From: Quatrionicoccus australiensis
GTDB lineage: Bacteria; Pseudomonadota; Gammaproteobacteria; Burkholderiales; Rhodocyclaceae
Direction: 5' to 3'
DNA length: 64,000 nucleotides
NCBI RefSeq assembly: GCF_020510425.1
Contig: NZ_JAHBAH010000001.1
Span: forward strand, 3,515,001-3,579,000
Numbering within the stretch: position 1 is the first letter of the stretch; every line of letters starts with the position of its first letter. A model generated the notes under the pieces. The model was not told the DNA's origin. It ran no database searches and saw nothing but the letters and a program-made list of their open reading frames with translations. Shown piece after piece: positions 45,528 to 60,785 of this stretch. The translations under genes were made by a program, and so were the position numbers.

Positions 45528-45561
45528 AAAAAATGGCCGCCGGGTGTTAACCCTGGCGGCC
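45528..45561 (-). terminator. Internal terminator/attenuator between binding-protein gene and paaF
   Basis: Minus strand: GGCCGCC-A-GGG stem, TTAACA loop, CCC-GGCGGCC, then ATTTTTT. It sits after the livK-type stop and directly before paaF's ribosome-binding site, so it should lower read-through. Confidence 0.75.
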
Positions 45562-45586
45562 GAACAGTGCAGCAGGGAAGATCGAA

Positions 45587-46732
45587 TTACTGGGCGATGG
45601 TCCAGTCGCCGCTCTTGACTTCGAGCATGCGGAAAGCGGAAAGGTCGAGGCCCATGTGGTCGGTAGCCGACATGTTCACGATGCCGCCGGTGCCGACGTA
45701 GCCCTTGGTCGCTTCGAGGGCGTCGCGGACCTTGGCCTTGTCGGTGGAATTGGCACGTTTGATCGCGTCGACCGCCAGCATCAGGCCGTCGTAGGCATGG
45801 CCGCCAAAGGTCGAGACATCGGTTTTCCAGCGTGCTTCAAAAGCCTTGCTGTAGCCGACGGCAACTGCCTTCTGCGGGTCCTTGTCGTTGAGCTTGTTGG
45901 CGACGAGCAGGGCGGCAGCCGGCAGGCGGATGCCTTCCGCAGCCGGGCCGGCGAGCTTGATGAACTCTTCGGAAGCGACGCCATGCGCGTGGTAGAGCGG
46001 TAGATTGACGCTCAACTGCTTGAAGTTCTTGGTGGCGATCGCCGGCCCCTGGCCGAGACCGAAGATGAATACCGCCTGCACGCCGGGCGTGCCCTTGATC
46101 TTGGTCAGCTGCGGGCTCATGTCGGTATCCTTCGGCCCGTAGGTCTCGTTGGCGACCAGCGTGATGCCGTACTTGGCGGCAACGCCTTCGCTTTCCTTCT
46201 TGCCGGAACCGCCGAAACCGCTGGTTTCGGAGAGCAGGGCGACCTTGCTGATGCCGCGCTTCTTCATGTCCTCGAAGACCTTTTCGGCGGCCATGCGGTC
46301 GGTGTGCGGCGTCTTGAACAGCCATTTCTTGACCGGCTCGACGATGACCACGGCGCCGGCCAGCGAGATGAACGGAATGCCCGCCTTCTCGACCAGCGGA
46401 GCAGCCGACATGGTGGCGCCGGTGGTGGTGCCGCCGACCAGCACGTCGACCTTGTCGTCCTCGATCAGGCGCTTGGTGAAGCCGTTGGCCTTGCCGGCAT
46501 CGCTACCGTCGTCGTAATGCACCAGTTCCAGCGGTCGACCGAGTACGCCGCCCTTTTTGTTGATGTCTTCGACGTACATCTGCAGGGTTTTCAGTTCCGG
46601 ATCGCCGAGGAAGGCGGCCGGACCGGTGACGGAAAGGACCGAACCGATCTTGATCGGGTCGGCAGCGAAGGCACTGAATGCGCCAAGAATCAGGACGGCG
46701 CCGGCAGCAAGCTTTTTGATGCTTTTATTCAT
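45587..46732 (-). CDS. Branched-chain-type (LivK/HAAT) ABC substrate-binding protein
   Basis: 381 aa from ATG 46732 (GGAGGAGA upstream). Signal peptide cleaves after AFA; the mature protein starts ADPIKIGSVLSVTGPAAFLGDPEL, the HAAT-family start. Further landmarks: KRLIEDDKVDVLVGGTTTGATM and FGGHAYDGLML. Periplasmic ligand binder for the LivHMGF-type transporter encoded in the divergent operon. Genomic position inside the paa operon suggests an aromatic acid such as phenylacetate as ligand (inference). A short hairpin (GCCCGGT/ACCGGGC, 46784-46809) lies between it and paaJ. Confidence 0.85.
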   Translation of the reverse strand: MNKSIKKLAAGAVLILGAFSAFAADPIKIGSVLSVTGPAAFLGDPELKTLQMYVEDINKKGGVLGRPLELVHYDDGSDAGKANGFTKRLIEDDKVDVLVGGTTTGATMSAAPLVEKAGIPFISLAGAVVIVEPVKKWLFKTPHTDRMAAEKVFEDMKKRGISKVALLSETSGFGGSGKKESEGVAAKYGITLVANETYGPKDTDMSPQLTKIKGTPGVQAVFIFGLGQGPAIATKNFKQLSVNLPLYHAHGVASEEFIKLAGPAAEGIRLPAAALLVANKLNDKDPQKAVAVGYSKAFEARWKTDVSTFGGHAYDGLMLAVDAIKRANSTDKAKVRDALEATKGYVGTGGIVNMSATDHMGLDLSAFRMLEVKSGDWTIAQ

Positions 46733-46818: not shown

Positions 46819-48024
46819 TCAGACGCGCTCGATCACCATGGCGATGCCTTGCCCGACCCCGATGCACATCGTGCATAGGGCGTAGCGGCCGCCACGGCGC
46901 TGGAGTTCATAGGCGGCGGTGGTGACCAGCCGGGCGCCGCTCATGCCGAGCGGGTGGCCGAGCGCGATCGCGCCGCCGTTGGGATTCACATGTGCCGCAT
47001 CGTCGGCCAGGCCGAGATCGCGCAACACGGCCAGCGCCTGCGCGGCGAAGGCTTCGTTGAGTTCGATGACGTCCATGTCGGCGAGGCTGAGGCCGGTCTG
47101 CGCCAATACCTTGCGCACCGCGGGGGCGGGACCGAAACCCATGATGCGCGGCGCCACGCCGGCCGTTGCCATGCCGACGACGCGGGCCAGCGGCTTCAGG
47201 CCATACTGGCCGGCGGCGGCTTCCGAAGCGATCAGCAGCGCACAGGCACCGTCATTGACGCCGGACGCATTGCCGGCGGTGACCGTGAGTTCCGGGCCGT
47301 TCACGCCCTTGAGCTTGGCGAGCTGTTCGAGCGTCGTTTCGGGACGCGGATGTTCGTCACGGTTGACCACTTTCGGATCGCCTTTTTTCTGGGCGATGAC
47401 CACCGGCACCAGCTCGTCGGCAAAACGTCCGGCCGCATCGGCCGCACCCCAGCGCTGCTGCGAGCGGATCGCGAAGGCGTCCTGGTCGGCGCGGCTGATG
47501 CCGAACTGCTCGGCGACGTTATCGGCCGTCTGCGGCATCGAATGCGTGTCGTAGAGCTTCTTCATCAGCGGGTTGGCAAAGCGCCAGCCGATGGTCGTGT
47601 CGTAGATCGCGGCATTGCGCGAGAAGGCGGAGTCTGCCTTGCCCATCACGAAGGGGGCGCGCGACATGCTTTCGACGCCGCCGGCAATCATCAATGAGGT
47701 TTCGCCGGCCTTGATTGAGCGCGCGGCCAGCCCGACCGCGTCCATGCCGGAGCCGCACAGGCGGTTGACCGTCGTGCCCGGCACTTCGATGGGCAGCCCG
47801 GCGAGCAGGCCGGACATGCGGGCGACGTTGCGGTTGTCTTCGCCGGCCTGGTTGGCGCAGCCGTAGATGATGTCATCGACGGCTGTCCAGTCGACCTGCG
47901 GATTGCGTTCCATCAGCGCCTTGAGCGGAATGGCGCCGAGGTCGTCGGCGCGCACGCCGGACAGCGCGCCGCCGTAGCGGCCGATCGGGGTACGGATGGC
48001 GTCGCAGATAAAGGCTTGAGTCAT
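46819..48024 (-). CDS. paaJ: PaaJ, 3-oxoadipyl-CoA/3-oxo-5,6-dehydrosuberyl-CoA thiolase
   Basis: 401 aa from ATG 48024, the same length as E. coli PaaJ and the typical [19 protein letters not shown] start; an ATG six bases earlier is possible. Catalytic Cys in [12 protein letters not shown] near 90, and C-terminal [14 protein letters not shown] and CIGVGQG carry the His and second Cys. It performs both thiolytic steps that release acetyl-CoA and succinyl-CoA. A BIME-like repeat separates it from paaK. Confidence 0.93.
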
Positions 48025-48142: not shown

Positions 48143-49468
48143 TCAGTCGCGTTTCGGGCGTTCGTCGAGCACGCGCTTGGCCTTGCCGACCTGGGTGCGC
48201 GGGATGGCGTCGAATTCCATGACGGTGATCTTGGTCGACACGCCGATGATGGTCTTGATGCGGTGCTGCAGTTCCTTGCTGATCTGCTGGATCTCGCTCT
48301 GCGGCAGCTTGCCGGACAGCTCGCGCTGCACTTCGCAGCGCACTTCGAGGTTGTCCATGTGGCCGTCGCGGGTGACGACGACCTGGTAATTGCCGGCCAG
48401 GCGCTTGTCGCGCAGGATCTGTTCCTCGATCTGGGTCGGGAAGACATTGACGCCGCGGATGATCAGCATGTCGTCGGAACGGCCGGTGATCTTGCCGATG
48501 CGGCGGAAGGAGCGGGAAGTCGGCGGCAGCAGGCGGGTCAGGTCGCGGGTGCGGTAGCGGATGACCGGGAAGGCTTCCTTGGTCAGCGAGGTGAACACCA
48601 GTTCGCCTTCCGAGCCGTCGGGCAGCACTTCGCCGGTTTCCGGGTCGATGATCTCGGGGTAGAAGTGGTCTTCCCAGATTACCGGGCCGTCCTTGGTTTC
48701 GATGCATTCGCAGGCGACGCCGGGGCCCATGACTTCGGTCAGGCCGTAGATGTCGATTGCGTCGATGCCGAGCTTGCGCTCGATTTCGCTGCGCATGCCT
48801 TCGCCCCAGGGTTCGGCGCCGAAGATGCCGACCTTGAGCGAGATTTCGTCCGGCTTGATGCCGAGGCGCTCGAACTCTTCGGCGATCACCAGCGAGTAGG
48901 ACGGCGTGACCATGATGATCTCGGGCTTGAAGTCCATGATCTGCTGTACCTGCTTCTCGGTCTGGCCGCCCGACATCGGCACGGCGCAGCAACCGAGGCG
49001 CTCGACGCCGTAGTGGGCGCCGAGGCCGCCTGTAAACATGCCGTAACCGTAGGCAACATGCACCATGTCACCGGCGCGGCCGCCGGCCGCACGGATCGAG
49101 CGGGCGACGACGTCGGCCCAGTTGTTGAGGTCGTTCTGCGTGTAGCCGACCACCACCGACTTGCCGGTCGTGCCGGACGACGCATGCAGGCGGGCAATCT
49201 TGTTGCGCGGCACGGCGAACAGCCCGAACGGATAGTTGTCGCGCAGGTCGAGCTTGGTCATGAAGGGGAATTTACTGAGGTCGCTCAGTGTCTTCAGGTC
49301 GTCCGGATGCACGCCCTTTTCCAGGCATTTGCGGCGATACGGCTCGACATTGTCGTAGCTGTGGCGCACCGACCATTTCAGGCGTTCGAGTTGCAGGGCC
49401 GAAATTTCGTCGCGGCTGGCGGTCTCGATAGCATCGAGTTCGCCGGGCAGGGGTTTCTTGGCGGTCAT
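48143..49468 (-). CDS. paaK: PaaK, phenylacetate-CoA ligase
   Basis: 441 aa, family length. Adenylate-forming signatures: [19 protein letters not shown] (ATP-binding, key SSGTTGK near 95), the [10 protein letters not shown] segment with aromatic specificity, [23 protein letters not shown] hinge, and the C-terminal lysine in [10 protein letters not shown]. Activates phenylacetate with ATP and CoA, the committing step. GGAG-type site before ATG 49468. Coding stops 7 bases from the BIME repeat. Confidence 0.95.
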
Positions 49469-49497: not shown

Positions 49498-49962
49498 TCA
49501 GTCGGCCTGTTGCAGTCCGGCGATCACTTCGCCATTGATGCGATAACTCTTGCCGCGGAACAGCGCGACGGTCTTGCCGCCGGCCACGCGCACGCTGATG
49601 TCGTAAACACCGGTACGGCCGGCGGCGGAACGTTCGACTGCCTCGGCTTCGAGCGTGTCGCCTTCTTTCGCCGGGGCGAGGAAGTCGATGTGGCAGGCCG
49701 ACGCGACGGTGTTCTTGTTGTAGCTGTTGCAGGCGTAGGCGAAGGCGGTGTCGGCCAGGCTGAAGATCATGCCGCCGTGGCAGATGTGGTGGCCGTTCAC
49801 CATGTCGCCGCGCACCGTCATGGTGAGCAGCGCGGCGCCCGGTTGGACGCGCACGATCTTCATGCCCAGCGCCTGCGCGGCGCGGTCACGGGAAAACATC
49901 GCCGTGGCGGTGGCTTCGGCCAGAGCTTGCGCCTCGGCCGGGGAGAGGTGGTGTTCAGTCAT
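49498..49962 (-). CDS. paaI: PaaI, hotdog thioesterase
   Basis: 154 aa from ATG 49962, which overlaps paaH by eight bases; longer starts in the same frame lie inside paaH. Hotdog landmarks: GHHICHGGMIFSLADTAFAYACNS with the HGG and Asp typical of PaaI. PaaI hydrolyses stalled ring-hydroxylated CoA esters, protecting the CoA pool. Position between paaH and paaK is conventional. Confidence 0.92.
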   Translation of the reverse strand: MTEHHLSPAEAQALAEATATAMFSRDRAAQALGMKIVRVQPGAALLTMTVRGDMVNGHHICHGGMIFSLADTAFAYACNSYNKNTVASACHIDFLAPAKEGDTLEAEAVERSAAGRTGVYDISVRVAGGKTVALFRGKSYRINGEVIAGLQQAD

Positions 49963-51484
49963 GGATGTTTCTTCCGGCAAACACGGCGCGCTGCAGCAGC
50001 GGCGAAATGCGGTAGCGGTCCTCACCGTAGCAGGTGCCGAGGTTGGCGAGCACGTCGCAGATGTTGCCGGCGCCGACAGCATCGGCCCAGGCGAGCGGCC
50101 CTTGCGGGTAATTGACGCCGAGGCGCATGGCAGAGTCGGCAGCGGTTTCGGAGCAAACGCCCTGGTTGACCGCATCGGCCGCTTCGTTGGCGAGCATGGC
50201 GACGGTACGCATCACGGCCAGGCCGGGCACGTCGAGAAAGCGCGAGACGGCAAAGCCGGCGGCTTGCAGCAGGCCGACGGCCGAGTTGATGGCGGCCGGT
50301 TCGCACTGTTCGGCAGCGGCAATCGCAATGCGGCTGGCCGTGGCGTAGTCGAGCGCGAGATCGATCAATACCGTATTGGCGACGCCGGATTCGGCAGCGC
50401 ACTGCGTCGCGCTGCGTCCGTCGGTGACATAGAGCGTGGCCAGCCCGATATCGGCGATGCGGCCATCGGTTTCCGGCGCGCGCGAAAAGGACAGGCCGCT
50501 GTGCGAAAGACGGTCAGCCAGTGCATCGGCAGCGGTCGACTCGCCAAAAACGGTGATTTTGCCGGCCGGCGTTTGCGCCGCTTCGGTCTGCGCGGCCGGT
50601 TTCACGGCGCCATCGCGGTAATCGTAGAAACCGCGGCCGGTCTTCTTGCCGTAGAAACCGGCATCGACCAGTTCCTGCTGGATCAGCGAGGGCAGGAAGC
50701 GCTGGTCGTTGTAGAAGGCGCGCCAGACCGAGTTGGTCACGGCGAAATTGACGTCGTGGCCGATCATGTCCATCAACTCGAACGGCCCCATGCGGAAACC
50801 GCCGGCCTCGCGCATCACGGCGTCGATGGTGGCGTAATCGGCAGCGCCTTCCTGCGCCAGGCGCAGGGCCTCGGCGTAGTAGGGGCGGGCGACGCGATTG
50901 ACGATGAAGCCGGGCGTCGATTTGGCATGCACTGGCGTCTTGCCCCAGGCTGCGGCAGTCGCGAACAGGGTGTCGGCGACGGCGCGCTCGGTCGCCAGGC
51001 CGGAGACGATTTCAACCAGGGCCATGAGCGGCGCCGGATTGAAGAAGTGCAGGCCGGCCAGGCGTTCCGGATGCTTGAGCGCGGCCCCGATGGCGGTGAC
51101 CGAGATCGACGAGGTGTTGGTGCCGAAGATGCAGTCGGCGGCGACGATGGCCTCGAGGTCGGCGTACAGCTTCTGCTTGGCTTCGAGATTCTCGACGATG
51201 GCTTCGACGACAAGCGCGCAGCCGGCTAGATCGGCGAGGTTTTCGACCGCTTGCAGGCGCCCGCCGGCGGCCGCGGCCGCCTCAGCGGTCAACCTGCCTT
51301 TTTCGGCCATTTTGCCGAACTGGGCGCGGATGCCATCAATGGCCTTGGCGGCGGCGCCCGGCCGGTTGTCGAGCAGACGCACGACATGGCCGGCGGCGGC
51401 TGCCACCTGGGCGATGCCGGCGCCCATTGCACCGGTGCCGACGACGGCAACGATGCTCTGCTGGGGTAGGGGTGTGTTGCTCAC
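49955..51484 (-). CDS. paaH: PaaH, 3-hydroxyacyl-CoA dehydrogenase
   Basis: 509 aa from GTG 51484; the frame is open upstream inside paaG, but GAGAG lies ten bases before the GTG and the family start (IVAVVGTGAMGAGIAQ) follows. NAD-binding Rossmann fold at the N-terminus, then DCIFGTNTSSISVTAIG and LHFFNPAPLMALVE, and two C-terminal helical domains (GFIVNRVARPYYAEALRL; GVNYPQGPLAWAD). Oxidises 3-hydroxyadipyl-CoA. The gap to paaG is four bases. Confidence 0.93.
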   Translation of the reverse strand: MSNTPLPQQSIVAVVGTGAMGAGIAQVAAAAGHVVRLLDNRPGAAAKAIDGIRAQFGKMAEKGRLTAEAAAAAGGRLQAVENLADLAGCALVVEAIVENLEAKQKLYADLEAIVAADCIFGTNTSSISVTAIGAALKHPERLAGLHFFNPAPLMALVEIVSGLATERAVADTLFATAAAWGKTPVHAKSTPGFIVNRVARPYYAEALRLAQEGAADYATIDAVMREAGGFRMGPFELMDMIGHDVNFAVTNSVWRAFYNDQRFLPSLIQQELVDAGFYGKKTGRGFYDYRDGAVKPAAQTEAAQTPAGKITVFGESTAADALADRLSHSGLSFSRAPETDGRIADIGLATLYVTDGRSATQCAAESGVANTVLIDLALDYATASRIAIAAAEQCEPAAINSAVGLLQAAGFAVSRFLDVPGLAVMRTVAMLANEAADAVNQGVCSETAADSAMRLGVNYPQGPLAWADAVGAGNICDVLANLGTCYGEDRYRISPLLQRAVFAGRNIHD

Positions 51485-51488
51485 GCCA

Positions 51489-52283
51489 TCACTCTCCGGT
51501 GAATTTGGGGGCGCGTTTTTCCATGAAGGCGGCGACGCCTTCGGCGTAGTCCGGGCTCCAGCCCAGCTCGCGCATGTAGCTGCCTTCCAGCGACAGTTGC
51601 TGCTCCAGCGTGTGGCCGGGGGCGGCATGCATGGCCTGGCGGGTGCGCACCAGCGCCTTGGTCGGCGCCGTGGAAAGTTGCTTTGCCAGGCCGTCGACCG
51701 CTGCGGCGAACTCGGCATCCTCGACGCATTGCCAGATCAGGCCCCAGTCGGCAGCCTTTTCGGCGGGCAGCTTGTCGGCGAGCAGGGCGAGGCCCATGGC
51801 GCGCGCCATGCCGACGCGCTGCGGCAGGAACCAGGTGCCGCCGGTGTCCGGAATCAGGCCGATCTTGGAGAAGGCCTGCAGGAAGGAGGCGGATTTCGTG
51901 GCGAGCACCAGATCGCAGGCCAGGGCGACCGACGCGCCGGCGCCGGCGGCGATGCCGTTGACGGCGGCGATGGTCGGCACGCGCAGGTTCTGCAGGCGCA
52001 GGATCAGCGGCTTGTAATTGGCTTCGACGACATTGCCGATGTCCGGCATCTTGCCGTTGACGCTGGCCATGTCCGGGTCGGCCAGGTCCTGGCCGGCACA
52101 GAAAGCACGGCCGGCACCGGTCAACACCAGAACGCGGATGTTTTTGTCGCTCTGGACACGGTCGAGCGCATCGCGCAGTTCGGCATGCATGGCGCCGGTG
52201 AAGCTGTTCAGCTTGTCCGGGCGATTCAGGGTCAGGCGGGCGACGCCGGCCTCGACTTCAAACTTGATGTTTTCGTAGGTCAT
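51489..52283 (-). CDS. paaG: PaaG, ring-1,2-epoxyphenylacetyl-CoA isomerase
   Basis: 264 aa from ATG 52283; the frame continues inside paaN without support. Crotonase fold: GAGRAFCAGQDLADPDM (oxyanion hole, typical PaaG), AGAGASVALACDL, and SKIGLIPDTGGTWFLPQ with the catalytic Asp rather than Glu, as in PaaG. PaaG converts the ring epoxide to oxepin-CoA. Its presence implies that the pathway upstream really makes an epoxyphenylacetyl-CoA-like product. Confidence 0.92.
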   Translation of the reverse strand: MTYENIKFEVEAGVARLTLNRPDKLNSFTGAMHAELRDALDRVQSDKNIRVLVLTGAGRAFCAGQDLADPDMASVNGKMPDIGNVVEANYKPLILRLQNLRVPTIAAVNGIAAGAGASVALACDLVLATKSASFLQAFSKIGLIPDTGGTWFLPQRVGMARAMGLALLADKLPAEKAADWGLIWQCVEDAEFAAAVDGLAKQLSTAPTKALVRTRQAMHAAPGHTLEQQLSLEGSYMRELGWSPDYAEGVAAFMEKRAPKFTGE

Positions 52284-52293
52284 GGGCTGCGAC

Positions 52294-53958
52294 TCAGATG
52301 TGATAACGGCGTTGCACGACAACGAAGCGATTGGCGACGAAAGCCGCATCGGCATAGGACGCATTGGCCGCCGGGTTGCCGCCGGTGCCGTGGTAGTCAG
52401 AGTAGGCCGCCGACTGGTTCACGAACACGCCGCCGGTCAGGTTGATCGACAGGGCGACCTTGGAGCGCATGGTGGCGGCGGTCATCGCGTCGAGCACGTC
52501 GGCGCTGGTCGAATAGATGCCGGCGGTCAGGGCGCCGTGGGTGCTGATGATGCGTTCGGACAGCGCAATCGCGGCGGCGGTATCGGCGACCTTGACGATG
52601 AAGCTGATCGGGCCGAAGCGCTCTTCCATGTAGGCCTTCTCGTCGGCGGCATCGCAGGCGAGCAGGATCGGGGTGCGCACTGCCGATTTCGGAAATTCCG
52701 GGTTGTCGAGCTTGCTCGAGGCGAGGATGACCTTGCCCAGCGCGCCGCTGTCAGCTTCATTGATGCGCTTCAGCGTATCGGCCGATTGCACGGCGCCGAG
52801 CACGGCGAGCGCAACTTCCGGCTTGGACAGGAAGCCGGAGACGGCTTTCGCCAGGTCGGCGCAGACGTCGTCGTAGCTCTTGTGGCCGTCTTCCGTTTCG
52901 ATGCCGCCGGCCGGCACGAAGATCGCCTGCGAGGTGGTGCACATCTGGCCGGAGTAGAGCGCCAGCGTGAAGGCCAGGTTGCGCAGCATCGGCTTGTAGG
53001 CGTCGGTCGAGTCGATGACGATGTTGTTGACGCCGGCCAGCTCGGCATAGACGCGGGCCTGGCGGCAGTTGTCGATCAGCCACTGGCCGAAGACGTTGCT
53101 GCCGGTGAAGTCGATCGACTTGACGGCCGGATCGGTCACCAGCTTTTGCGTCGTGGCGCGGTCGGCAACGCACAGCGTGACCAGGTTGGGATCGATGCCG
53201 TTCTCGGCCAACACGGCGCGGATGGTGCGCACGGTGATCGCGGCGGGCAGGATGGCGTTGCTGTGCGGCTTGACGATCACGGCATTGCCCGTGGACAGCG
53301 CGGCAAACAGGCCGGGGTAGGTGTTCCAGGTCGGGAAGGTGCCGCAGCCGACGACGACGCCGACGCCATGGCCGACCAGTTCGAAGTGCTTCTTCATGAC
53401 CAGCGGCGGGTTCTTGCCTTGCGGCTTTTCCCAGGTCGTTTCAGTCGGCACGAAGCTTTGTTCGCGGTAAGCGTAGGCGACGGCTTCGAGGCCACGGTCC
53501 TGGGCGTGCGGGGCGCCGGCCTGGAAGGCCATCATCCAGCCCTGGCCGGTGGTCATCATCACGGCGTGGGCGAGTTCGAAGCTCTGCTTGTTGAGGCGCT
53601 CAAGGATTTCCAGGCAGATGCCGGTGCGGCCGTCGGCGCCGGCTTTCTGCCAGCCGAGCATGGCCTGCTGGCCGGCGGCGATCAGTGCGGCGTGGTCGCA
53701 GACGGGATATTGCACATTCAGGTCGATGCCGTAGGGCGACTGTTCGCCACCGGTCCAGCCGCTCTGGCCAGGCTGGCCGAGTTCGAAGTTCCGGCCGAGG
53801 TGAGCCTCGAAAGCTTTCTTGCCATCTTCGGCCGCCGTTTCGCCATAAGTCTTCGGGCTCGGCATCTCGTTATAGGCCGACCAGTAGCCACGGGTGTGAA
53901 TGGCGTTGAGGGCACCGTCGAGCGTGGCGCGGTGTTTTTCCAGTAGTTGGGCGGACAT
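52294..53958 (-). CDS. paaN: PaaN, aldehyde-dehydrogenase-type oxepin-CoA pathway enzyme
   Basis: 554 aa, the length of the PaaN (single-domain PaaZ) family: an ALDH domain without the MaoC hydratase domain that E. coli PaaZ carries. Catalytic Cys in GQMCTTSQ, Glu in YAELAGV, and conserved FPTWNTYPGLFAALSTGNAVIVKPH. It oxidises the semialdehyde formed after oxepin-CoA ring opening. No MaoC-type hydrolase is encoded in the window. AAGGAGATATGG ribosome-binding site; first gene of the leftward operon. Confidence 0.93.
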   Translation of the reverse strand: MSAQLLEKHRATLDGALNAIHTRGYWSAYNEMPSPKTYGETAAEDGKKAFEAHLGRNFELGQPGQSGWTGGEQSPYGIDLNVQYPVCDHAALIAAGQQAMLGWQKAGADGRTGICLEILERLNKQSFELAHAVMMTTGQGWMMAFQAGAPHAQDRGLEAVAYAYREQSFVPTETTWEKPQGKNPPLVMKKHFELVGHGVGVVVGCGTFPTWNTYPGLFAALSTGNAVIVKPHSNAILPAAITVRTIRAVLAENGIDPNLVTLCVADRATTQKLVTDPAVKSIDFTGSNVFGQWLIDNCRQARVYAELAGVNNIVIDSTDAYKPMLRNLAFTLALYSGQMCTTSQAIFVPAGGIETEDGHKSYDDVCADLAKAVSGFLSKPEVALAVLGAVQSADTLKRINEADSGALGKVILASSKLDNPEFPKSAVRTPILLACDAADEKAYMEERFGPISFIVKVADTAAAIALSERIISTHGALTAGIYSTSADVLDAMTAATMRSKVALSINLTGGVFVNQSAAYSDYHGTGGNPAANASYADAAFVANRFVVVQRRYHI

Positions 53959-54021
53959 CCATATCTCCTTGGGGCTTTTTTCTTGGGCAAGTGCGCTGCA
54001 GTGCGGCGCGAATCTGAGCGA

Positions 54022-54063
54022 ACGATACGAACTTGCTCGGCGATTGTCAATTGTTTGTATCGT
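54022..54063. promoter_or_regulatory. Candidate operator in the paaN/oxygenase divergent region
   Basis: ACGATACGAAC (54022-54032) and GTTTGTATCGT (54053-54063) are inverted with one mismatch; CGATACAAA recurs at 54219-54227 just before the -35 of the rightward promoter. The same word (TTTGTATCG) is upstream of paaX. Confidence 0.5.
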
Positions 54064-54231
54064 AAAAATACAGTTTTTGTGATGTTATGTTTAGTAAAAA
54101 CGATTTTGACGCAGTGCAAAAAACGAATTAAAACAATGGTAAAAAATGTTTTGTGCGCAAAATTTCTTTCGAGATTCTGAAATGTAAAATTTGTTCTGAA
54201 AAATATTTTGCACAAAGCGATACAAAAAACG

Positions 54232-54261
54232 TTGACACGCGGTGTTGGTAAGTATCATTAT
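54232..54261 (+). promoter_or_regulatory. Sigma-70-like promoter for the oxygenase operon
   Basis: TTGACA at 54232-54237 and CATTAT at 54256-54261 with an 18-base spacer, about 70 bases before the oxygenase ATG, in an AT-rich intergenic region. Confidence 0.6.
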
Positions 54262-54330
54262 TCGATCCACGCCATCCGGGCACCTGGATGACTTACCAAC
54301 CTGAGACGAAAACCCCGCCAAGGAGGAGAT

Positions 54331-55359
54331 ATGGCTAGCAACAAGGAACGTTTTGCCGACAAGATGGAATTCCCGCCGGAAATCCAGCAGCCCAACATCT
54401 ATCCGCTGTCCTGGAACAGCAAGACCAAGAAGTTGCAGGAAGTCTGGGAAGCCTCGCTGCGCGAGAACTGGGATCCGGAAAAGCTGCCCTGGGATACGCT
54501 GGATGTAGACAGCTACACCTGGGAAGAGCGCGAATCCATCGCCTACTGGTGGAGCCTGCTCTCCGTATTCGATGCGTCCGCCCCGCCGGTTTTCGCCGAA
54601 GCGCTGGTCAAGACCTATGAAGTGCATGAGGAAGATCCGGTCCGCAAGTGCTTCTTCTCGGTCACCCGCGACGAACAGAACCACGAAATCATGTGCGGCC
54701 TGGCCATCACCAAGCTGCTCGGCCATCCGGACCCGATCACCTACGAGCCGAAGACCGAACTGGGCAAGCGCCTGCAGAAGAACGTCAAGTGGCTGTACTT
54801 CAACGGCGCCCGTTACTGGACCGGCTACAAGCAGGCCGTGCCCAAGTACGACCTGGCGGTTTTGTTCAGCTCCTTCCTGATGGGCGAGATCGCTGCCGCC
54901 ACCATCTTCAAGCAGATGTTCGACAACTCCCGCGAAGCCGTCTTCAAGGAAGGTTTCAAGAACATCGGCCGCGACGAAGGCCGCCACATGGCGATCTGCA
55001 TGGCCGTCATGGAACGCGACTACCCGGGCCTCAAGGAAGAAACCAAGTCCATCGTCACCAAGCAGATCCGCGCCGGTTACCTGTTCCTGTCGGCCGTGCT
55101 GTTCGAGCCGCCGATGGAATTCTGGGACCTGCCGGAAGACTTCATCGCCAACCAGCGTGAAGGCGAAGAAGTGGCCCGCGGCGCCGGTTTCGGCATCCCG
55201 AGCTACGAAGCCAAGCTGGAAAACTGGAAGAACGCGATGATCAACCTGAAGGGCGTGCTCGACCGCTACAACATCCCGTTCCCGGCGATTCCGGAAGTCG
55301 GCATCACCGGCCAGGAAGTCAGCGACGTCGATCTGGACGACATCATTCCGGTCTTCTAA
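54331..55359 (+). CDS. Ferritin-like diiron protein, candidate ring oxygenase
   Basis: 342 aa, AAGGAGGAG before the ATG. It has a four-helix diiron site: Glu90 (or Glu97), E115xxH118 in DEQNHE, Glu186 in FLMGEIAAAT, and E216xxH219 in RDEGRH. Length and spacing differ from the classical PaaA/PaaC pair, BoxB and the MMO alpha subunit, though they share the fold. It is the first gene of the rightward operon and is followed by a ferredoxin reductase, then a liv-type transporter. It lies across a divergent promoter from paaN. Since paaABCDE is absent from the window, it is the best candidate for phenylacetyl-CoA (or a related CoA ester) oxygenation here. This is inference; no family name is certain. 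Confidence 0.8.
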   Translation: MASNKERFADKMEFPPEIQQPNIYPLSWNSKTKKLQEVWEASLRENWDPEKLPWDTLDVDSYTWEERESIAYWWSLLSVFDASAPPVFAEALVKTYEVHEEDPVRKCFFSVTRDEQNHEIMCGLAITKLLGHPDPITYEPKTELGKRLQKNVKWLYFNGARYWTGYKQAVPKYDLAVLFSSFLMGEIAAATIFKQMFDNSREAVFKEGFKNIGRDEGRHMAICMAVMERDYPGLKEETKSIVTKQIRAGYLFLSAVLFEPPMEFWDLPEDFIANQREGEEVARGAGFGIPSYEAKLENWKNAMINLKGVLDRYNIPFPAIPEVGITGQEVSDVDLDDIIPVF

Positions 55360-55388
55360 TCGGTCGACCGCGTAAAAGAAGCCAAAAC

Positions 55389-55416
55389 GGCCGGTGCCCC
55401 GCGAGGGGTTCCGGCC
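55389..55416 (+). other. Stable hairpin between oxygenase and reductase genes
   Basis: GGCCGG-TG-CCCC / GCGA / GGGG-TT-CCGGCC with GCGA tetraloop and no T-run: an RNA stabiliser or weak attenuator, which would favour more oxygenase than reductase. A CGGTCGACCG palindrome lies just upstream at 55361-55370. Confidence 0.6.
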
Positions 55417-55458
55417 TTGCCGCAACAGAGAAACCAAGACAAAAAAGGGGAAGACAAA

Positions 55459-56508
55459 ATGGCTCGTATCATCATGCAACCGTCCGGCAAGTCCGTGGAT
55501 TGCGCCTATGGCGATACCGTTCTGATGGCGCTGGAGAAGGCCGGCTACGCGCTGCCCAACAACTGCCGCGCCGGTGCCTGCGGTGAATGCAAGGTCAAAG
55601 TCACAACCGGCCAGTTCGACCAGGGCATGGTGCTCGACATGGCGCTGTCGCAGGACGAACGCAAGCAGGGCTATGGCCTGATGTGCATGGCCAAGCCGAT
55701 TTCCGAGGAAATCAGCATCGAGTGGGGCACCGAGGACGCCAAGCCCAAACTCTTCCCGCCGCGCGAAGACGCGCTCTTTGTAGTTACCGACAAGAAACAG
55801 ATCGCCGCCCGCGTCGTCGAGCTGCGCCTGCGCCCGGTCGGCCAGCCGATCCGCTACTGGCCCGGCCAGTACGTGACGCTCGGCAACCCGCGCGCCGACA
55901 TTCCGGCCCGCGCCTATTCTATTTCCAATGCACCGCGCCCGGATGGCGAGCTGGTGCTGCAAATTGCCCGCGCCGAAGGCGGCGTGACCAGCAACTGGGT
56001 GCATGACCAGCTTGCGGTCGGCGAGGGCGTCAAGGTTTCCGGTGCCTACGGCACCTTCATCGGCGACCCGTCGGTCGATACGCCGGTGCTGTGCATCGCC
56101 GCCGGCACCGGCCTGGCGCCCGTGCTGGCGCTGGCCGAAGCGGCACTGCGCCGCGGCTTCAAGAAGCCGGTGACCATGCTCTTCTCGGCGCGTACCAAGG
56201 CTGACGTCTACAGCCAGGGCATGATGGCCTGGTGGCGCACCAAACATCGCAACTTCGACTACAAGGTGACGCTGACCCGCGAAGAAGCCGAGGGTTTCCT
56301 CAAGGGCCGCATCGATGTCGTGCTGCCGCAGATGTTCAAGGATCTCTCCAAGCACACCATCTTCATTGCCGGCAGCCCGGAGTTCGTCGATGCCGGCGTT
56401 GCCGCCGTCAAGGCACTCGGCGCGCAGGACGACCTGGTGCACACCGAGGGTTTCTTCGCGCAGCAGCAGCCGGTGACGGCGGATGCCGACCATCTGCTGG
56501 CCCACTGA
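55459..56508 (+). CDS. Ferredoxin-FAD-NAD(P) reductase for the diiron protein
   Basis: 349 aa from ATG 55459 (GGGGAAGA upstream); the longer frame from 55417 has no support. Domain order: N-terminal plant-type 2Fe-2S ferredoxin with Cys36, Cys41, Cys44 and Cys76, FAD-binding with RAYS at 151-154, and NAD(P)-binding with AAGTGLAP at 214-221. This is the order of MMO, phenol-hydroxylase and benzoate-dioxygenase reductases. PaaE has the ferredoxin at the C-terminus, so this is not PaaE. It should feed electrons from NAD(P)H to the diiron protein upstream. Confidence 0.9.
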   Translation: MARIIMQPSGKSVDCAYGDTVLMALEKAGYALPNNCRAGACGECKVKVTTGQFDQGMVLDMALSQDERKQGYGLMCMAKPISEEISIEWGTEDAKPKLFPPREDALFVVTDKKQIAARVVELRLRPVGQPIRYWPGQYVTLGNPRADIPARAYSISNAPRPDGELVLQIARAEGGVTSNWVHDQLAVGEGVKVSGAYGTFIGDPSVDTPVLCIAAGTGLAPVLALAEAALRRGFKKPVTMLFSARTKADVYSQGMMAWWRTKHRNFDYKVTLTREEAEGFLKGRIDVVLPQMFKDLSKHTIFIAGSPEFVDAGVAAVKALGAQDDLVHTEGFFAQQQPVTADADHLLAH

Positions 56509-56566: not shown

Positions 56567-56602
56567 ATGAACAACCATCGCCCGCGGGCAGGGAGGCTGT
56601 GA
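56567..56602 (+). CDS. Mini-ORF, possible leader peptide of livH
   Basis: ATG at 56567 follows CGGAGACGAC and encodes MNNHRPRAGRL, with TGA overlapping the livH ATG (TGATG at 56600-56604). This looks like a short translated leader coupled to livH. It may also be just a scar of rearrangement or chance. Confidence 0.35.
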   Translation: MNNHRPRAGRL

Positions 56603-57477
56603 TGCTTGCCCAGTTCCTGCAATTCCTCTTTTCCGGGATCACGGTCGGCGCCACCTACGCGCTGGCCGCGCTCGGCTTCACGCTGATCTACAACGCCAGC
56701 AACGTGATCAACTTCGCCCAGGGCGAATTCATCATGTTGGGCGGCATGCTTGCCGTGTTCTTCACGCAGGCCGGCCTGCCGCTGCCGGTCGCGCTGATGC
56801 TCGCCATCCTGATTCCGGCCATCGTCGGCGTGCTGATCGAAAAGCTCGCCATCGAGCCGGTCAAGGGCGCCGAACCGGTCACCCTGATCATCATCACCAT
56901 CGGCGCCTCGCTGGTCATCCGCGGCCTGAGCGCGGTGATCTTCGGCAAGGGCACGCACAGCCTGCCGGCTTTCTCGGGCGATGCGCCGATCGAGATCCTT
57001 GGTGCGACGTTGCTGCCGCAGAGCCTGTGGGTACTCGGCGTGACCGCCGTGGTGGTCTTGGCGCTGTGGTATTTCTTCAACCGCACGCTGCACGGGAAGG
57101 CCATGCTGGCGACCTCGTTCAACCGTCTGGCGGCCGAACTGGTCGGCATCAACACGTCGTGGGTGCTGTTCATGAGTTTCGCGATGTCGGCGGCGCTCGG
57201 CGCGCTGGGCGGCATTCTGCTGACGCCGATCACGCTGACTTCCTACGACGTCGGGATCATGCTCGGTTTGAAGGGCTTCGTCGCCGCCGTGTTGGGCGGT
57301 CTGGGCAACGGCCTCGGTGCCGTGGTTGGCGGCCTGCTCGTCGGCATCCTCGAAGCGATGGGCGCCGGCTACATTTCGTCCGCCTACAAGGACGCAATGC
57401 CTTTCGTGCTCATCCTGTTCATTCTCTTCTTCATGCCGCGCGGCCTGTTCGGCGGCAAATCGACGGATCGGGTGTGA
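56602..57477 (+). CDS. livH: LivH-type ABC transporter permease
   Basis: 291 aa from ATG 56602 with GGGAGG six bases before it. About eight hydrophobic helices and the LivH landmarks GLTLIYNASNVINFAQGEF (here GFTLIYNASNVINFAQGEF), QSLWVLG region and PITLTSYDVGIMLGLKGF. Inner-membrane half of the importer whose binding protein is in the divergent paa operon. Ligand inferred to be an aromatic acid. Note: translationally coupled to the mini-ORF. Confidence 0.9.
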   Translation: MLAQFLQFLFSGITVGATYALAALGFTLIYNASNVINFAQGEFIMLGGMLAVFFTQAGLPLPVALMLAILIPAIVGVLIEKLAIEPVKGAEPVTLIIITIGASLVIRGLSAVIFGKGTHSLPAFSGDAPIEILGATLLPQSLWVLGVTAVVVLALWYFFNRTLHGKAMLATSFNRLAAELVGINTSWVLFMSFAMSAALGALGGILLTPITLTSYDVGIMLGLKGFVAAVLGGLGNGLGAVVGGLLVGILEAMGAGYISSAYKDAMPFVLILFILFFMPRGLFGGKSTDRV

Positions 57478-57479
57478 GA

Positions 57480-57560
57480 TGAAACGACCCCCACACTCAC
57501 TTCGTTCGTTGCCCCCCAAGGGGGCGCATGCCTCCCTCGGGGCGGCCCTTCGCGAGGCAT
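57480..57560. repeat. GC-rich intergenic repeat inside the liv operon
   Basis: Contains CCCCCACACTCACTTCGTTCG, CCCCCCAAGGGGGCGC and CCTCCCTCGGGGCGGCCC, the type of intergenic repeat often seen in beta-proteobacteria. It lies between livH and livM and ends at livM's GAGG site. Confidence 0.65.
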
Positions 57561-57563
57561 AAC

Positions 57564-58496
57564 ATGAAGAAATCTGTCTACAACGGCCTTTACCTGGTCA
57601 TCGCCATCCTGCTGGTGCTGCCTTTCGTGCTGCCCAACAGCTTCTACCTCGATCTCGTCATCCGCATGGCGATCAATGCCGTGATCGTGCTCGGCCTCAA
57701 CCTGCTGATCGGCTTTGCCGGCCAGATCAGTCTCGGCCACGCCGGTTTCCTCGGTATCGGTGCCTACGCATCGGCTGTGCTGCCGACGCATTTCGGCTGG
57801 CATCCGCTGCTCGCCATGGGCGCCGGCGCTGCCACCACCGGCATTCTTGCCGCGCTGGTGGCGCGCCCGATCTTCAAGCTCAAGGGCAACTACCTGGCGA
57901 TGGCGACGCTCGGCCTCGGCATCATCATCAACATCGCCCTGCGCAACGAAGCGCAATGGACGGGTGGGCCGGACGGCATGCCGGTGCCGGGCATGGGCCT
58001 GTTCGGTTTCGAGCTGGCCAGCGACAAGCACTGGTACTGGGTCGTCGCGCTGCTGCTCTCGGTGTCGGTGTGGGCTTCGCTCAACCTGATCGACTCGCCC
58101 TTCGGCCGGGCGCTGCGCGCGCTGCATGGCTCCGAAGTCGCGGCGCAGGTGGTCGGCGTCGATATCGTGCGCTACAAGGTGGCGATCTTCGTGCTCTCCG
58201 CCGTTTTCGCCAGCCTGATGGGTAGCGTTACGGCGCATTACGTCGGTTTCGTCAGCCCCAACTTCGCCGACTTCTTCCACTCCATCGAACTGGTCACCAT
58301 GGTCGTGATCGGCGGCATGGCCTCGGTGTACGGCTCGCTGGTCGGCGCCGTGCTGCTGACCGCGCTGCCGCAGGCGCTGGCCACCTTCGAAGGCTGGGAA
58401 ACCGTGGTCTTCGGCGCCATCCTGATGCTCTCGATGATCTTCCTGCCCAAGGGCCTGGTGCCGACGCTGGCAGCCAAATTCGGCAAGGGGAACTGA
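57564..58496 (+). CDS. livM: LivM-type ABC transporter permease
   Basis: 310 aa from ATG 57564 (GAGG upstream). Nine or so hydrophobic helices; LivM signatures NLLIGFAGQISLGHAGFLGIGAY (key GFAGQISLGHAGF) and MGSVTAHYVGFVSP, GGMASVYGSLVGAV. Pairs with LivH to form the membrane channel. The stop is two bases before livG. Confidence 0.92.
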   Translation: MKKSVYNGLYLVIAILLVLPFVLPNSFYLDLVIRMAINAVIVLGLNLLIGFAGQISLGHAGFLGIGAYASAVLPTHFGWHPLLAMGAGAATTGILAALVARPIFKLKGNYLAMATLGLGIIINIALRNEAQWTGGPDGMPVPGMGLFGFELASDKHWYWVVALLLSVSVWASLNLIDSPFGRALRALHGSEVAAQVVGVDIVRYKVAIFVLSAVFASLMGSVTAHYVGFVSPNFADFFHSIELVTMVVIGGMASVYGSLVGAVLLTALPQALATFEGWETVVFGAILMLSMIFLPKGLVPTLAAKFGKGN

Positions 58497-58498
58497 AC

Positions 58499-59260
58499 AT
58501 GTCGCTACTCGAAGTCAAGGACCTGTCCATCCATTTTGGTGGCGTCAAGGCGGTGCAGAACGTCTCGTTCAACATCGACGCCGGCATCGTCTACTCGGTG
58601 ATCGGCCCGAACGGCGCCGGCAAGACGACGCTGTTCAACCTGATCACCGGCGTCTACAAGCCGACCACGGGCGAAATCCGTCTCGACGGCGAAGCCATCC
58701 ACGGCAAGTCGCCCAACGAACTGGCCCGGCGCGGCGTGGCACGCACCTTCCAGAACCTGCAGATCTGCATGAACATGACGGCCATCGAAAACGTCATGGT
58801 CGGCGCCCATCTGCGTCTGGATCGCAACCTGGTCAAGGCGGCCCTGCGCTTCCCCGGCCTGAAAAAGCGTGACCGCGAGATGCGCGCCGAAGCGGCCAAA
58901 CTGATGGATTTCGTCGGCCTCGGCCAGTACGTCGAAACCCGTGCCGACGCGATGTCCTACGGTGCCCTGAAGCGCCTGGAAATCGCCCGCGCCCTGGCCA
59001 TGCAGCCGCGCCTGATTTTCCTCGACGAACCGGCCGCCGGCCTGAATCCCAAGGAAACCATCGAGATTGACCACCTGGTGCGCAAGATTGCCGATTCCGG
59101 CGTGACCGTGGTCCTCGTCGAGCACGACATGAAAATGGTCATGAACCTGTCGGACCGCATCCTGGTGCTCGATTACGGCAAGAAGCTGACCGAGGGCACG
59201 GGCGAGGAAATCAGAAAAAATCCCGATGTGATTGCGGCTTATCTCGGCGCTCACGCCTGA
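58499..59260 (+). CDS. livG: LivG-type ABC transporter ATP-binding protein
   Basis: 253 aa. Walker A GPNGAGKTTLFNL near 37, signature-like YGALKRLEIARAL (LivG proteins deviate from LSGGQ in this way), Walker B LIFLDEPAAGLN, and switch His in VEHDMKMV. One of two ATPases of the importer; the other is the hemerythrin-fused LivF 208 bases downstream across a BIME repeat. Confidence 0.92.
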   Translation: MSLLEVKDLSIHFGGVKAVQNVSFNIDAGIVYSVIGPNGAGKTTLFNLITGVYKPTTGEIRLDGEAIHGKSPNELARRGVARTFQNLQICMNMTAIENVMVGAHLRLDRNLVKAALRFPGLKKRDREMRAEAAKLMDFVGLGQYVETRADAMSYGALKRLEIARALAMQPRLIFLDEPAAGLNPKETIEIDHLVRKIADSGVTVVLVEHDMKMVMNLSDRILVLDYGKKLTEGTGEEIRKNPDVIAAYLGAHA

Positions 59261-59291
59261 GAAGCAACTCGTGATCTTTCGTTTGTCATTC

Positions 59292-59390
59292 AAACCCCAC
59301 CCCAGCCCTCCCCTTGACAGGGGAGGGAGCTCGCCGGCGCGCGATTTGGGGTGCTCCTCCCCTGATAAGGGGAGGCCGGGAGGGGTTTTA
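59292..59390. repeat. BIME-like repeat, copy 3, between livG and the fused livF
   Basis: CCCTCCCCTTGACAGGGGAGGG and CCTCCCCTGATAAGGGGAGG palindromes with AAACCCCACCCC and GGGAGGGGTTTT ends, and the spacer GCTCGCCGGCGCGCG. Same family as copies 1 and 2. Confidence 0.78.
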
Positions 59391-59468
59391 CAGACGCATC
59401 AAACAAAACCACAGCCCGTTTTCATGATCTTCCGAAAATCATGAACCGGCTCTGAGAAGGGAAAGAAC

Positions 59469-60785
59469 ATGGAAGCACTACGCATCATCACCGAAGAGCA
59501 CCAGAACCTCTGGCGTATCGCCACCACGCTGGACATGGTGGCGGACGAGATCGACGCCGGCAGCAAGGTCGAGACGCCGTTTTTCAGCTCGGTCTTCGAC
59601 TACATCGAGCAGTTCATGGACCGCGCCCACCACGCCAAGGAAGACGCCTTCCTGTTCCCGGCGCTGCGCCTGCGCTCGCCCGATGCGGCGGCGATTCTCG
59701 ACCGCTTGCAGGTCGAGCACGTCAACGGCCCGGAAGTGCTGCGCGATTTGCGCACAAAACTGGCGTCGACCGCTGGCGGCGGCGAAAGCAATGCCGCCTT
59801 CACGGCGGCGCTGCGCAACTACACGTCGGCGATCAAGAACCACATCCGCAGCGAGGAAAAGGACGCCATGCCGCTCGCCCGCGAGGTGCTGACCGGCGAC
59901 GACTGGGCCGAGATCGACCGCGCCTTTCTCGACAACGACGACCCGCTGTTCGGCGGCAAGGCGCGCGCCGAATTCCGCGAACTGTTCCACCGCATCGCCA
60001 GCCTGGCGCCGGAATCGATCGGCCTCGGCGCGCATAGCGCCGGCGAACTGCAACCGGGCGCCGCCAGCGGGCCGGGCGACGTGCTGCTTTCGGTCAAGGG
60101 CATGGAAAGCTGCTACGGCCGGATCAAGGCGCTCAAGGGCATCGACCTCGAAGTGCGCAAGGGCGAACTGGTCGCGCTGGTCGGCGCCAACGGTGCCGGC
60201 AAGACCACCTTCCTGCGCACGCTCTCCGGCGTGCAGCCGATGAGTGCCGGCCAGATCATGTTCGACGGCGAAGACATCAGCAAACTGCGCGCCGACCTGC
60301 GCATGCGTCGCGGCATCTGCCAGAGCCCGGAAGGCCGCCAGGTCTTCGGCCCGCTCAGCATCGAGGACAACCTGCGCCTGGGCGCCTATACCCAGCCGAA
60401 AGGGCAGGTCGAGGGCGATCTCGAAAAGATTTTCGCGATGTTCCCGATCTTGAAGGAAAAGCGCAACCTGCCGGCCGGCACGCTCTCCGGCGGCCAGCAG
60501 CAGATGCTCGCCATCGGCCGCGCCCTGATGGGCCGCCCGAAAATGCTGCTCCTCGACGAACCGTCAATGGGCCTCGCGCCGCTGCTCGTCGAAGAAGTCT
60601 TCAACGTCGTCAAAACGCTGAAAGCCCAAGGCATGACCATCTTCCTCGTCGAACAGAACGCCTTCGCCGCGCTCGCCATCGCCGACCGCGGCTACGTCCT
60701 CGAAACCGGCCACATCACCCTGACCGGCACCGGCCAGGAACTGATCAGCAACGAACAGGTGCGGGCGGCTTATCTCGGGATGTAG
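59469..60785 (+). CDS. livF: Hemerythrin-LivF fusion (HHE domain plus ABC ATPase)
   Basis: 438 aa, about 200 more than LivF. Residues 1-180 are a hemerythrin-type helical domain with the metal ligands His11, His54/Glu58, His84 and His125/Glu129. A linker (about 180-203) leads to a complete LivF: Walker A GANGAGKTT at 239-247, signature LSGGQQQM, Walker B MLLLDEPSMG and switch His-equivalent region LVEQNAF. The single frame and a good ribosome-binding site (AAGGGAAAG) argue against an assembly artefact. An O2-binding HHE domain on the ATPase could link import to oxygen supply (inference). Confidence 0.9.
   Translation: MEALRIITEEHQNLWRIATTLDMVADEIDAGSKVETPFFSSVFDYIEQFMDRAHHAKEDAFLFPALRLRSPDAAAILDRLQVEHVNGPEVLRDLRTKLASTAGGGESNAAFTAALRNYTSAIKNHIRSEEKDAMPLAREVLTGDDWAEIDRAFLDNDDPLFGGKARAEFRELFHRIASLAPESIGLGAHSAGELQPGAASGPGDVLLSVKGMESCYGRIKALKGIDLEVRKGELVALVGANGAGKTTFLRTLSGVQPMSAGQIMFDGEDISKLRADLRMRRGICQSPEGRQVFGPLSIEDNLRLGAYTQPKGQVEGDLEKIFAMFPILKEKRNLPAGTLSGGQQQMLAIGRALMGRPKMLLLDEPSMGLAPLLVEEVFNVVKTLKAQGMTIFLVEQNAFAALAIADRGYVLETGHITLTGTGQELISNEQVRAAYLGM

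Follow-up and report, generated by a model that had tools for sequence, protein, structure and literature searches.

A two-gene diiron oxygenase system proposed to epoxidise phenylacetyl-CoA in Quatrionicoccus australiensis and its relatives

Known epoxidases and the Quatrionicoccus pair

Among the aerobic routes for aromatic compounds, that through phenylacetyl-CoA is a major one, with epoxidation of the ring as its key step. PaaABCDE is the sole enzyme named for this step in the accessible portions of five papers (PMC9007349, PMC13186573, PMC9493321, PMC2770484, PMC6515984). Here we describe a pair of genes, encoding a diiron protein and a reductase, that lies in a 64,000-nucleotide stretch of the Quatrionicoccus australiensis genome (the window) and is divergent from a paa operon in which paaABCDE is missing. 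The pair probably encodes a two-component phenylacetyl-CoA epoxidase not described before, which would be the sole such enzyme of this genome and a second one beside PaaABCDE in many relatives.

As far as the available text of the sources goes, PaaG works on the epoxide, and the ring-opened aldehyde oxidised by PaaN/PacL-type enzymes derives from it (PMC9007349, PMC9493321). The alternative described in the part of PMC9007349 available is an oxepin-CoA hydrolase, not an epoxidase, and no alternative phenylacetyl-CoA epoxidase was found among the titles and abstract openings listed in a mostly open-access literature search, or in the portions of the five papers above. A 2026 survey, again in the portion available, reports that each of its 825 ligase-bearing proteomes has PaaA and PaaC, after both had served as a selection criterion, recommends the two as markers and mentions ligase paralogues in contexts lacking the complex (PMC13186573).

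The pair and its flanking promoters are laid out as follows (window positions).

54024..54061, minus strand: promoter of the paaN operon, with the same GATAC-N28-GTATC architecture as the pair promoter (pattern search)
54219..54256, plus strand: promoter of the pair, GATAC-N28-GTATC around a TTGACA −35-like box (pattern search)
54331..55359, plus strand: 342-amino-acid R2-fold diiron protein, proposed oxygenase component (invariance, structure model, fold search)
55459..56508, plus strand: 349-amino-acid reductase with a plant-type [2Fe–2S] domain at the N-terminus, then FAD and NAD domains; proposed electron donor (domain models)

In plan, the nearest analogue of the pair is BoxAB, the benzoyl-CoA 2,3-epoxidase, a two-component epoxidase of an aryl-CoA thioester. 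The reductase scores only 29.7 bits against the BoxA model TIGR03224 (cut-off 459.2) and so is not of BoxA type, and no BoxB model was among the matches listed for the diiron protein at E ≤0.01. The nearest Pfam family is that of the AurF N-oxygenases (PF11583), which act on free arylamines; the diiron protein falls below its cut-off. R2-like ligand-binding oxidases (R2lox), ribonucleotide reductase R2 and the azoxy synthase VlmB are not known to have a dedicated Fer2/FAD/NAD reductase gene as partner. Soluble diiron monooxygenases (phenol hydroxylase and methane monooxygenase, MMO; PF02332) share the domain order of the reductase with the pair but differ in that the two-gene unit has no PF02332 match and no second subunit or effector protein.

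With PaaABCDE itself the pair has in common the proposed reaction, the pathway neighbours, the kinds of regulator and the combination of a diiron oxygenase with a flavin/[2Fe–2S] reductase. The differences are that two genes stand in place of five, that neither of the two has a PF05138 match, that no counterpart of PaaB, PaaC or PaaD is seen, that the first metal ligand is likely an aspartate, and that the ferredoxin domain is N-terminal in the reductase whereas it is C-terminal in PaaE (PMC9493321, in the part available).

The diiron protein and its reductase

An earlier note on this DNA, made from the letters alone, had described a 342-amino-acid ferritin-like diiron protein with E115, H118, E186, E216 and H219 as its motif residues. 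These residues all stand, and to them must be added D81, a likely sixth ligand missing from that list: the six sit in four long helices of the predicted structure and are unchanged throughout a 97-row alignment, and from this invariance and their positions in the model they are the likely iron ligands. The model has an R2-type fold with the dimetal site in the four helices. The structure-based search that the note had called for placed R2lox/R2 proteins best among the matches listed, which also included an aldehyde-deformylating-oxidase protein and VlmB, with identities of 9–14% in the listed alignments. Neither PaaA nor BoxB was among the 50 fold matches listed, which is not evidence that their folds differ, and no solved structure was convincingly related to the protein by sequence.

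Against Pfam the diiron protein gave sub-threshold matches only (AurF, 19.6 bits with a cut-off of 29.6; Rubrerythrin, 15.3 with a cut-off of 22.8). PF00268 (R2) and PF02332 were both absent from its Pfam matches at E ≤1, and the PaaA/PaaC models PF05138 and TIGR02156 were not among its Pfam and NCBIfam matches; in precomputed annotation PF11583 is present for some homologues and PF00268 for a few. The closest named relatives among the matches listed, from Dechloromonas and Azonexus, are 97% identical.

For the reductase the most probable start is ATG 55459 (349 amino acids) rather than TTG 55417. In the numbering of the longer, 363-amino-acid open reading frame (ORF) its domains are Fer2 (21–94), FAD (123–214) and NAD (227–326), and the 349-amino-acid form carries the cysteine motif C36-x4-C41-x2-C44. 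The N-terminal ferredoxin, in the MMO/phenol-hydroxylase order and the reverse of that in PaaE (PMC9493321, as far as available), is thus as the note had read it. The protein scores 131.8 bits against TIGR02160 (PaaE; cut-off 420.8), and is not of PaaE type, and 132 bits against the MmoC model (cut-off 500).

A paa operon that lacks paaABCDE

The operon runs on the minus strand from 53958 down to 43952 in the order paaN, G, H, I, K, J, an ABC substrate-binding gene, a paaF-type hydratase gene and a second hydratase gene.

52294..53958, minus strand: paaN, ring-opened aldehyde dehydrogenase (TIGR02288, 894.6 bits, cut-off 578.8)
51489..52283, minus strand: paaG, epoxide to oxepin isomerase (TIGR02280, 384.6 bits, cut-off 345.2)
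49955..51484, minus strand: paaH, start approximate (TIGR02279, 685.5 bits, cut-off 669.4)
49498..49962, minus strand: paaI, thioesterase (TIGR02286, 169.9 bits, cut-off 118.9)
48143..49468, minus strand: paaK, phenylacetate-CoA ligase (TIGR02155, 704.4 bits, cut-off 646.3)
46819..48024, minus strand: paaJ, thiolase (TIGR02430, 731.8 bits, cut-off 597)
45587..46732, minus strand: ABC transporter substrate-binding protein (PF13458, 199 bits)
45542..45586, no strand: site of paaABCDE in the same-genus genome G306, 45 bp in the window against ~4.2 kb in G306 (blastn)
44743..45516, minus strand: paaF-type enoyl-CoA hydratase (best fit PRK05862, 447.9 bits, cut-off 396)
43952..44734, minus strand: second enoyl-CoA hydratase/isomerase (equivalog cut-off reached by none of the best 25 model matches)

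For PaaN, G, H, I, K and J the scores lie above the curated cut-offs of NCBIfam, and the paaF-type protein, assigned by PRK05862, stays under that of the PaaF model (273.5 bits, cut-off 371); the single operon of paaN, G, H, I, K, J and F reported in the note is borne out. PaaN fits the aldehyde-dehydrogenase-type model, which does not include the hydratase part of PaaZ, and for this reason oxepin-CoA hydrolase activity is not assigned to it; the second hydratase may be a candidate for that step, as may the paaF-type one.

The note had found no PaaA–E in the window. This now extends to the whole genome (two contigs, 4.31 Mb, completeness 100%), where PF05138 has no match and a profile search with TIGR02156 gave no candidate PaaA, so that the five-subunit epoxidase was not found anywhere in it; the search elsewhere in the genome had been proposed as a check, and its outcome favours the note's inference of an alternative enzyme.

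Comparison with G306 (locus L160) shows what is missing. There the order is paaJ, binding protein, paaA, B, C, D, E, paaF, hydratase, and the two genomes are collinear on both sides of the paaABCDE site, which in the window lies between the binding-protein and paaF-type genes, with flanking blocks at 83–85% nucleotide identity (blastn). G306 also has the pair, 96% identical and at the same divergent position, and its PaaN, G, H, I, K and J are 84–94% identical to those of the window, which makes a shift of substrate unlikely. Judged from this comparison, the window operon appears to be a naturally occurring form, free of paaABCDE, of an operon that in other genomes contains both enzymes.

Two further loci of the source genome deserve mention in their own right. 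One (L158, G000:C1:2883487-2884749) encodes a second phenylacetate-CoA ligase (743 bits) whose neighbours look housekeeping-like by eye; the other (L159, G000:C1:695500-708499) has two adjoining PF02332 subunits in what by eye is a multicomponent phenol-hydroxylase-like operon.

Neighbourhood and operators of the pair

Loci of the pair were compared for the best 80 of 181 by similarity, counts of loci here leaning towards close relatives. The reductase gene directly follows the diiron gene in 79 of the 80, the exception (L041) ending inside the diiron gene. At least two paa core genes are in reach in 57/80 and a PaaX-like gene in 45/80, and in four loci (L046, L058, L069, L075) the pair adjoins paaABCDE with no paa core gene in reach. 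On plasmid pVF1 of Vitreoscilla filiformis it lies near annotated paaZ and paaABCDE. Counted over 100 non-duplicate loci (omitting duplicates L082, L083, L084, L104, L125, L126, L132 and L137 and sister loci L143–L145), 94 show at least one Paa link: paa core genes in 70, paaABC in five, and a published operator or a PaaX-like gene in 19.

At the promoters, the fuller GATAC-N28-GTATC/TTGACA pattern matches twice in the window, with 0.00 expected (none in 100 shuffles). In its tighter form (GATAC, TTGAC, TATC), 83 of 84 matches in loci longer than 3 kb precede the pair or paaN, and 31 loci have it before both; the looser spaced repeat precedes both in 49 loci, overlapping copies among them, with 36/230 matches elsewhere (strands counted apart). 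This spaced GATAC–GTATC repeat is the putative operator of window-type pairs, 15/21 of which have no perfect palindrome with 7-base arms before them.

A second, published operator is ACCGACCGGTCGGT, for which mutation shows a need in negative control of the Burkholderia cenocepacia paaA promoter, PaaR being the binder deduced (PMC2770484, in the portion available). With two mismatches or fewer and within 250 bp upstream it precedes 12 of the 25 pairs that stand apart from paa genes, whereas 198 permuted operators on the same pairs average 0.01 and reach 1 at most; another 7/25 are near a PaaX-like gene. As a control, 33/759 ORF upstream regions from the same 30 loci (pairs and overlapping ORFs included) also reach the ACCGACCGGTCGGT operator. 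Five of the 25 pairs (L006, L048, L050, L056, L065) are on short contigs or near contig ends. In genome G280 the stand-alone pair and paaG are both preceded by a site that matches TTGACCGACCGGTCAA with one or two mismatches. Palindromic operator-like matches number 28 before marker genes, with 9/37 away, against 0–3 before marker genes for permuted palindromes (20 draws, one repeated).

Since the promoter architecture is common to pair and paaN operon and ACCGACCGGTCGGT precedes 12/25 stand-apart pairs, the pair looks to be part of the Paa regulon, whose regulator would bind at the window operators. At the level of sequence, the pair has both its place among paa genes and Paa-type operators.

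Distribution of the pair and of PaaA

In the family sample of 121 genomes a full-length diiron protein of the pair is found in 21, of which 11 also have canonical PaaA/PaaC and 10 have no PF05138 match; close relatives are over-represented in the samples, and the Fisher values ignore shared descent. One further genome has a 53%-identical remnant. This is a decayed pair (L123, G238:C70) in which diiron residues 227–342 and, by eye, a fragment of the reductase survive beside a PaaX-like gene open over 365 amino acids. PaaG was rejected as a marker for co-occurrence because it has too many paralogues, and PaaN was used instead; it is present in 21/21 pair genomes and 27/100 others (Fisher 1.3e-10). 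Among the 36 family genomes whose PaaN scores 850 bits or more, a line set after the scores had been seen, PaaA alone is found in 12, both enzymes in 11, the pair alone in 10 and neither in three, whilst for all 48 PaaN genomes the figures are 12, 11, 10 and 15. The 13 PaaA-less genomes above the line are thus made up of 10 with the pair and three with a PaaA-like protein.

These three (G187, G207, G235) carry the PaaA-like gene between paaN and paaG (L136:9333-10663, L135, L141). Its products score 72.6–89.1 bits against PF05138, and one was scored at 60.8 against TIGR02156 (cut-off 280); that of L136 has 265 amino acids and adjoins a flavodoxin gene. It is possibly a third solution to the epoxidation step.

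It could be argued that the pair is an accessory to the pathway, such as an oxidase removing O2 or peroxide or a system for epoxide repair or deoxygenation, and that another enzyme, for instance a phenol-hydroxylase-like monooxygenase, makes the epoxide. The R2lox/R2 fold would suit such a role, co-regulation by itself does not fix the step, and the source genome does hold another soluble diiron monooxygenase (PF02332). That enzyme, however, is over 1 Mb distant in both directions, with no paa gene recognised by eye in the surrounding 13 kb, and an accessory role leaves unexplained why the 13 PaaA-less genomes divide as they do between the pair and the PaaA-like protein. We regard this account as improbable.

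Among 24 named pair genomes PaaA is present in 12 and absent from 12, the latter including Castellaniella defragrans DSM 12141, Dechloromonas denitrificans ATCC BAA-841, Brachymonas denitrificans DSM 15123 and Insolitispirillum peregrinum DSM 11589; a literature listing held no useful records of growth on phenylacetate for the PaaA-less named species. Together with the family genomes and two from the order sample (G038, G172), and with one duplicate removed, 46 pair genomes were checked, 22 without PaaA and 24 with it. The pair is near at least two paa core genes in 21/22 of the former and 9/24 of the latter (p 3.4e-5), with L083 read through its longer copy L019 and the window itself counted as beside paa genes. 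PaaK is above cut-off in 46/47 pair genomes. On a tree of the diiron protein with 61 labelled rows, bootstrap values for which had not fully settled, the state of PaaA changes at least 11 times, six of these forced by starred branches; of the 39 rows labelled with PaaA, 24 were called by whole-genome search, 14 are metagenome loci carrying paaA and one is a plasmid, and G111 and L003 were counted as one. With 4/200 genomes in the order sample and 2/398 in the phylum sample, the window's own included, the pair system is uncommon and patchy.

A further reading would make the operon a relic, left after loss of paaABCDE in a lineage that no longer oxidises phenylacetate via the epoxide, with the pair unrelated to it. 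The otherwise collinear operon without paaABCDE is what such a loss would leave. Yet the remaining genes are open over their full length and resemble those of complete operons, the promoter architecture is kept, and among pair carriers the PaaA-less state turns up on many branches, nearly always with the pair beside paa genes. This reading is very improbable.

Sister pairs and the question of substrate

Variovorax plasmids carry sister pairs about 51% identical to the window pair (about 52% in V. paradoxus VAI-C). In VAI-C (L143:1725-18975) the neighbours include a PaaN (624.7 bits, cut-off 578.8), a MaoC hydratase with the PaaZ model as its best match (87.7 bits, below cut-off), a crotonase (PaaG model, 149 bits, cut-off 345), a PaaK-like ligase (283 bits, cut-off 646), a thiolase, an ABC transporter, a GlcD-like oxidase and an annotated indolepyruvate ferredoxin oxidoreductase, and no further oxygenase is annotated in the 19-kb stretch. 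The sister diiron protein scores 23.3 bits against PF11583, also below the cut-off of 29.6. The cluster looks like an undescribed arylacetyl-CoA pathway. It supports arylacetyl-CoA ring epoxidation as the probable chemistry of the family and suggests that substrates differ between its branches; the family as a whole may not be confined to one arylacetyl-CoA.

These sister pairs bear on the most serious alternative, in which the window-type pair oxidises another arylacetyl-CoA, for example a substituted phenylacetyl-CoA, so widening the Paa range, and PaaA-less operons are wholly devoted to that compound. The distinct VAI-C cluster, with a ligase of its own, would fit, as would coexistence with PaaA in 24/46 genomes. 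We nevertheless consider it unlikely: PaaK, PaaG and PaaN of the window reach the equivalog cut-offs of the phenylacetate pathway and are about equally close to those of PaaA-bearing L124 and PaaA-less L003, and the diiron protein is at least 71% identical to that of the window across the 220 sequences compared.

Proposed function

If the pair is the phenylacetyl-CoA epoxidase, PaaK would make phenylacetyl-CoA, and the reductase would pass electrons from NAD(P)H via FAD and [2Fe–2S] to the R2-type diiron centre. Once reduced, this centre would activate O2 and place one oxygen atom across C1–C2 of the ring; PaaG would isomerise the epoxide to the oxepin, and PaaN and later enzymes would complete the pathway. 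Genetics and regulation argue strongly that a genome without PaaABCDE uses another epoxidase. What the analysis shows directly is the gene content, the lack of PaaA/PaaC matches, the operators shared in sequence, the distribution and a predicted fold; substrate, product, electron path, ligand set, regulator binding and catalysis are inferred from these.

Several observations weigh against this proposal. PaaA is kept beside the pair in 24/46 genomes, so the pair is not simply a substitute, and the source genome has the PF02332 monooxygenase mentioned above. Six of the 100 loci (L006, L047, L064, L068, L071, L133) have no Paa link in reach. The proteins matched by fold (R2lox, R2, the aldehyde-deformylating-oxidase protein and VlmB) are none of them described there as CoA-ester enzymes. 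Genomes G187, G207 and G235 (PaaN 860–880 bits) have neither enzyme, as have 12 with weaker PaaN; PaaG is above cut-off in 40/200 genomes of the order sample, several of them with neither oxygenase; and G172, a draft in 260 contigs, has no PaaK match. A Variovorax RA8 cluster, otherwise similar to that of VAI-C, has no annotated PaaN in the stretch, and in a Nonomuraea relative (50%) neither a reductase nor a paa gene is seen next to the diiron gene. A specialisation for low oxygen or denitrification was also considered and rejected: nosZ occurs in 17/21 pair genomes and 49/100 others (p 0.008), yet also in 12/12 PaaA-only genomes, so the link with denitrification is not specific to the pair.

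The earlier note had inferred a two-gene epoxidase replacing PaaABCDE. Neighbourhood, recurrent PaaA-less states, shared operators and the paaABCDE-free operon support the enzyme, but strict replacement does not hold: retention of PaaA in 24 of the 46 genomes points to an isoenzyme able to stand alone. Two isoenzymes, either of which can be lost, is the simplest account of coexistence.

Neighbouring genes of the window

Downstream of the reductase gene lies a probable transporter, and beyond it a further module.

56599..60785, plus strand: livH, livM, livG and a hemerythrin–LivF fusion (Pfam run on livH and the fusion)
61154-63518: reverse transcriptase matching Drt8 (502 bits) and a partner matching RTasPDDEXK (247 bits)

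The Liv-type transporter is, from its neighbourhood, a possible candidate for phenylacetate uptake. Its LivF-type ABC ATPase (59469-60785) has an N-terminal hemerythrin domain (PF01814, 67.4 bits) that is possibly oxygen-binding; relatives of this window protein occur in many loci. The module at 61154-63518 looks like a putative DRT-type anti-phage defence system.

Implications

Taken with the sister pairs, we lean towards an undescribed family of two-component R2-fold arylacetyl-CoA epoxidases, in which one branch is a second phenylacetyl-CoA epoxidase, often left as the sole one, independently, after loss of PaaABCDE, whilst the ~50%-identical Variovorax branch, with its own PaaN cluster, epoxidises another arylacetyl-CoA. 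If so, the view taken in the field of PaaA and PaaC as markers of the pathway would be wrong, and surveys using these markers would miss genomes like that of the window. The pair would show an R2-type diiron fold carrying out the same chemistry, and with two genes in place of five would offer a simpler system in which to study arene epoxidation on a CoA ester.

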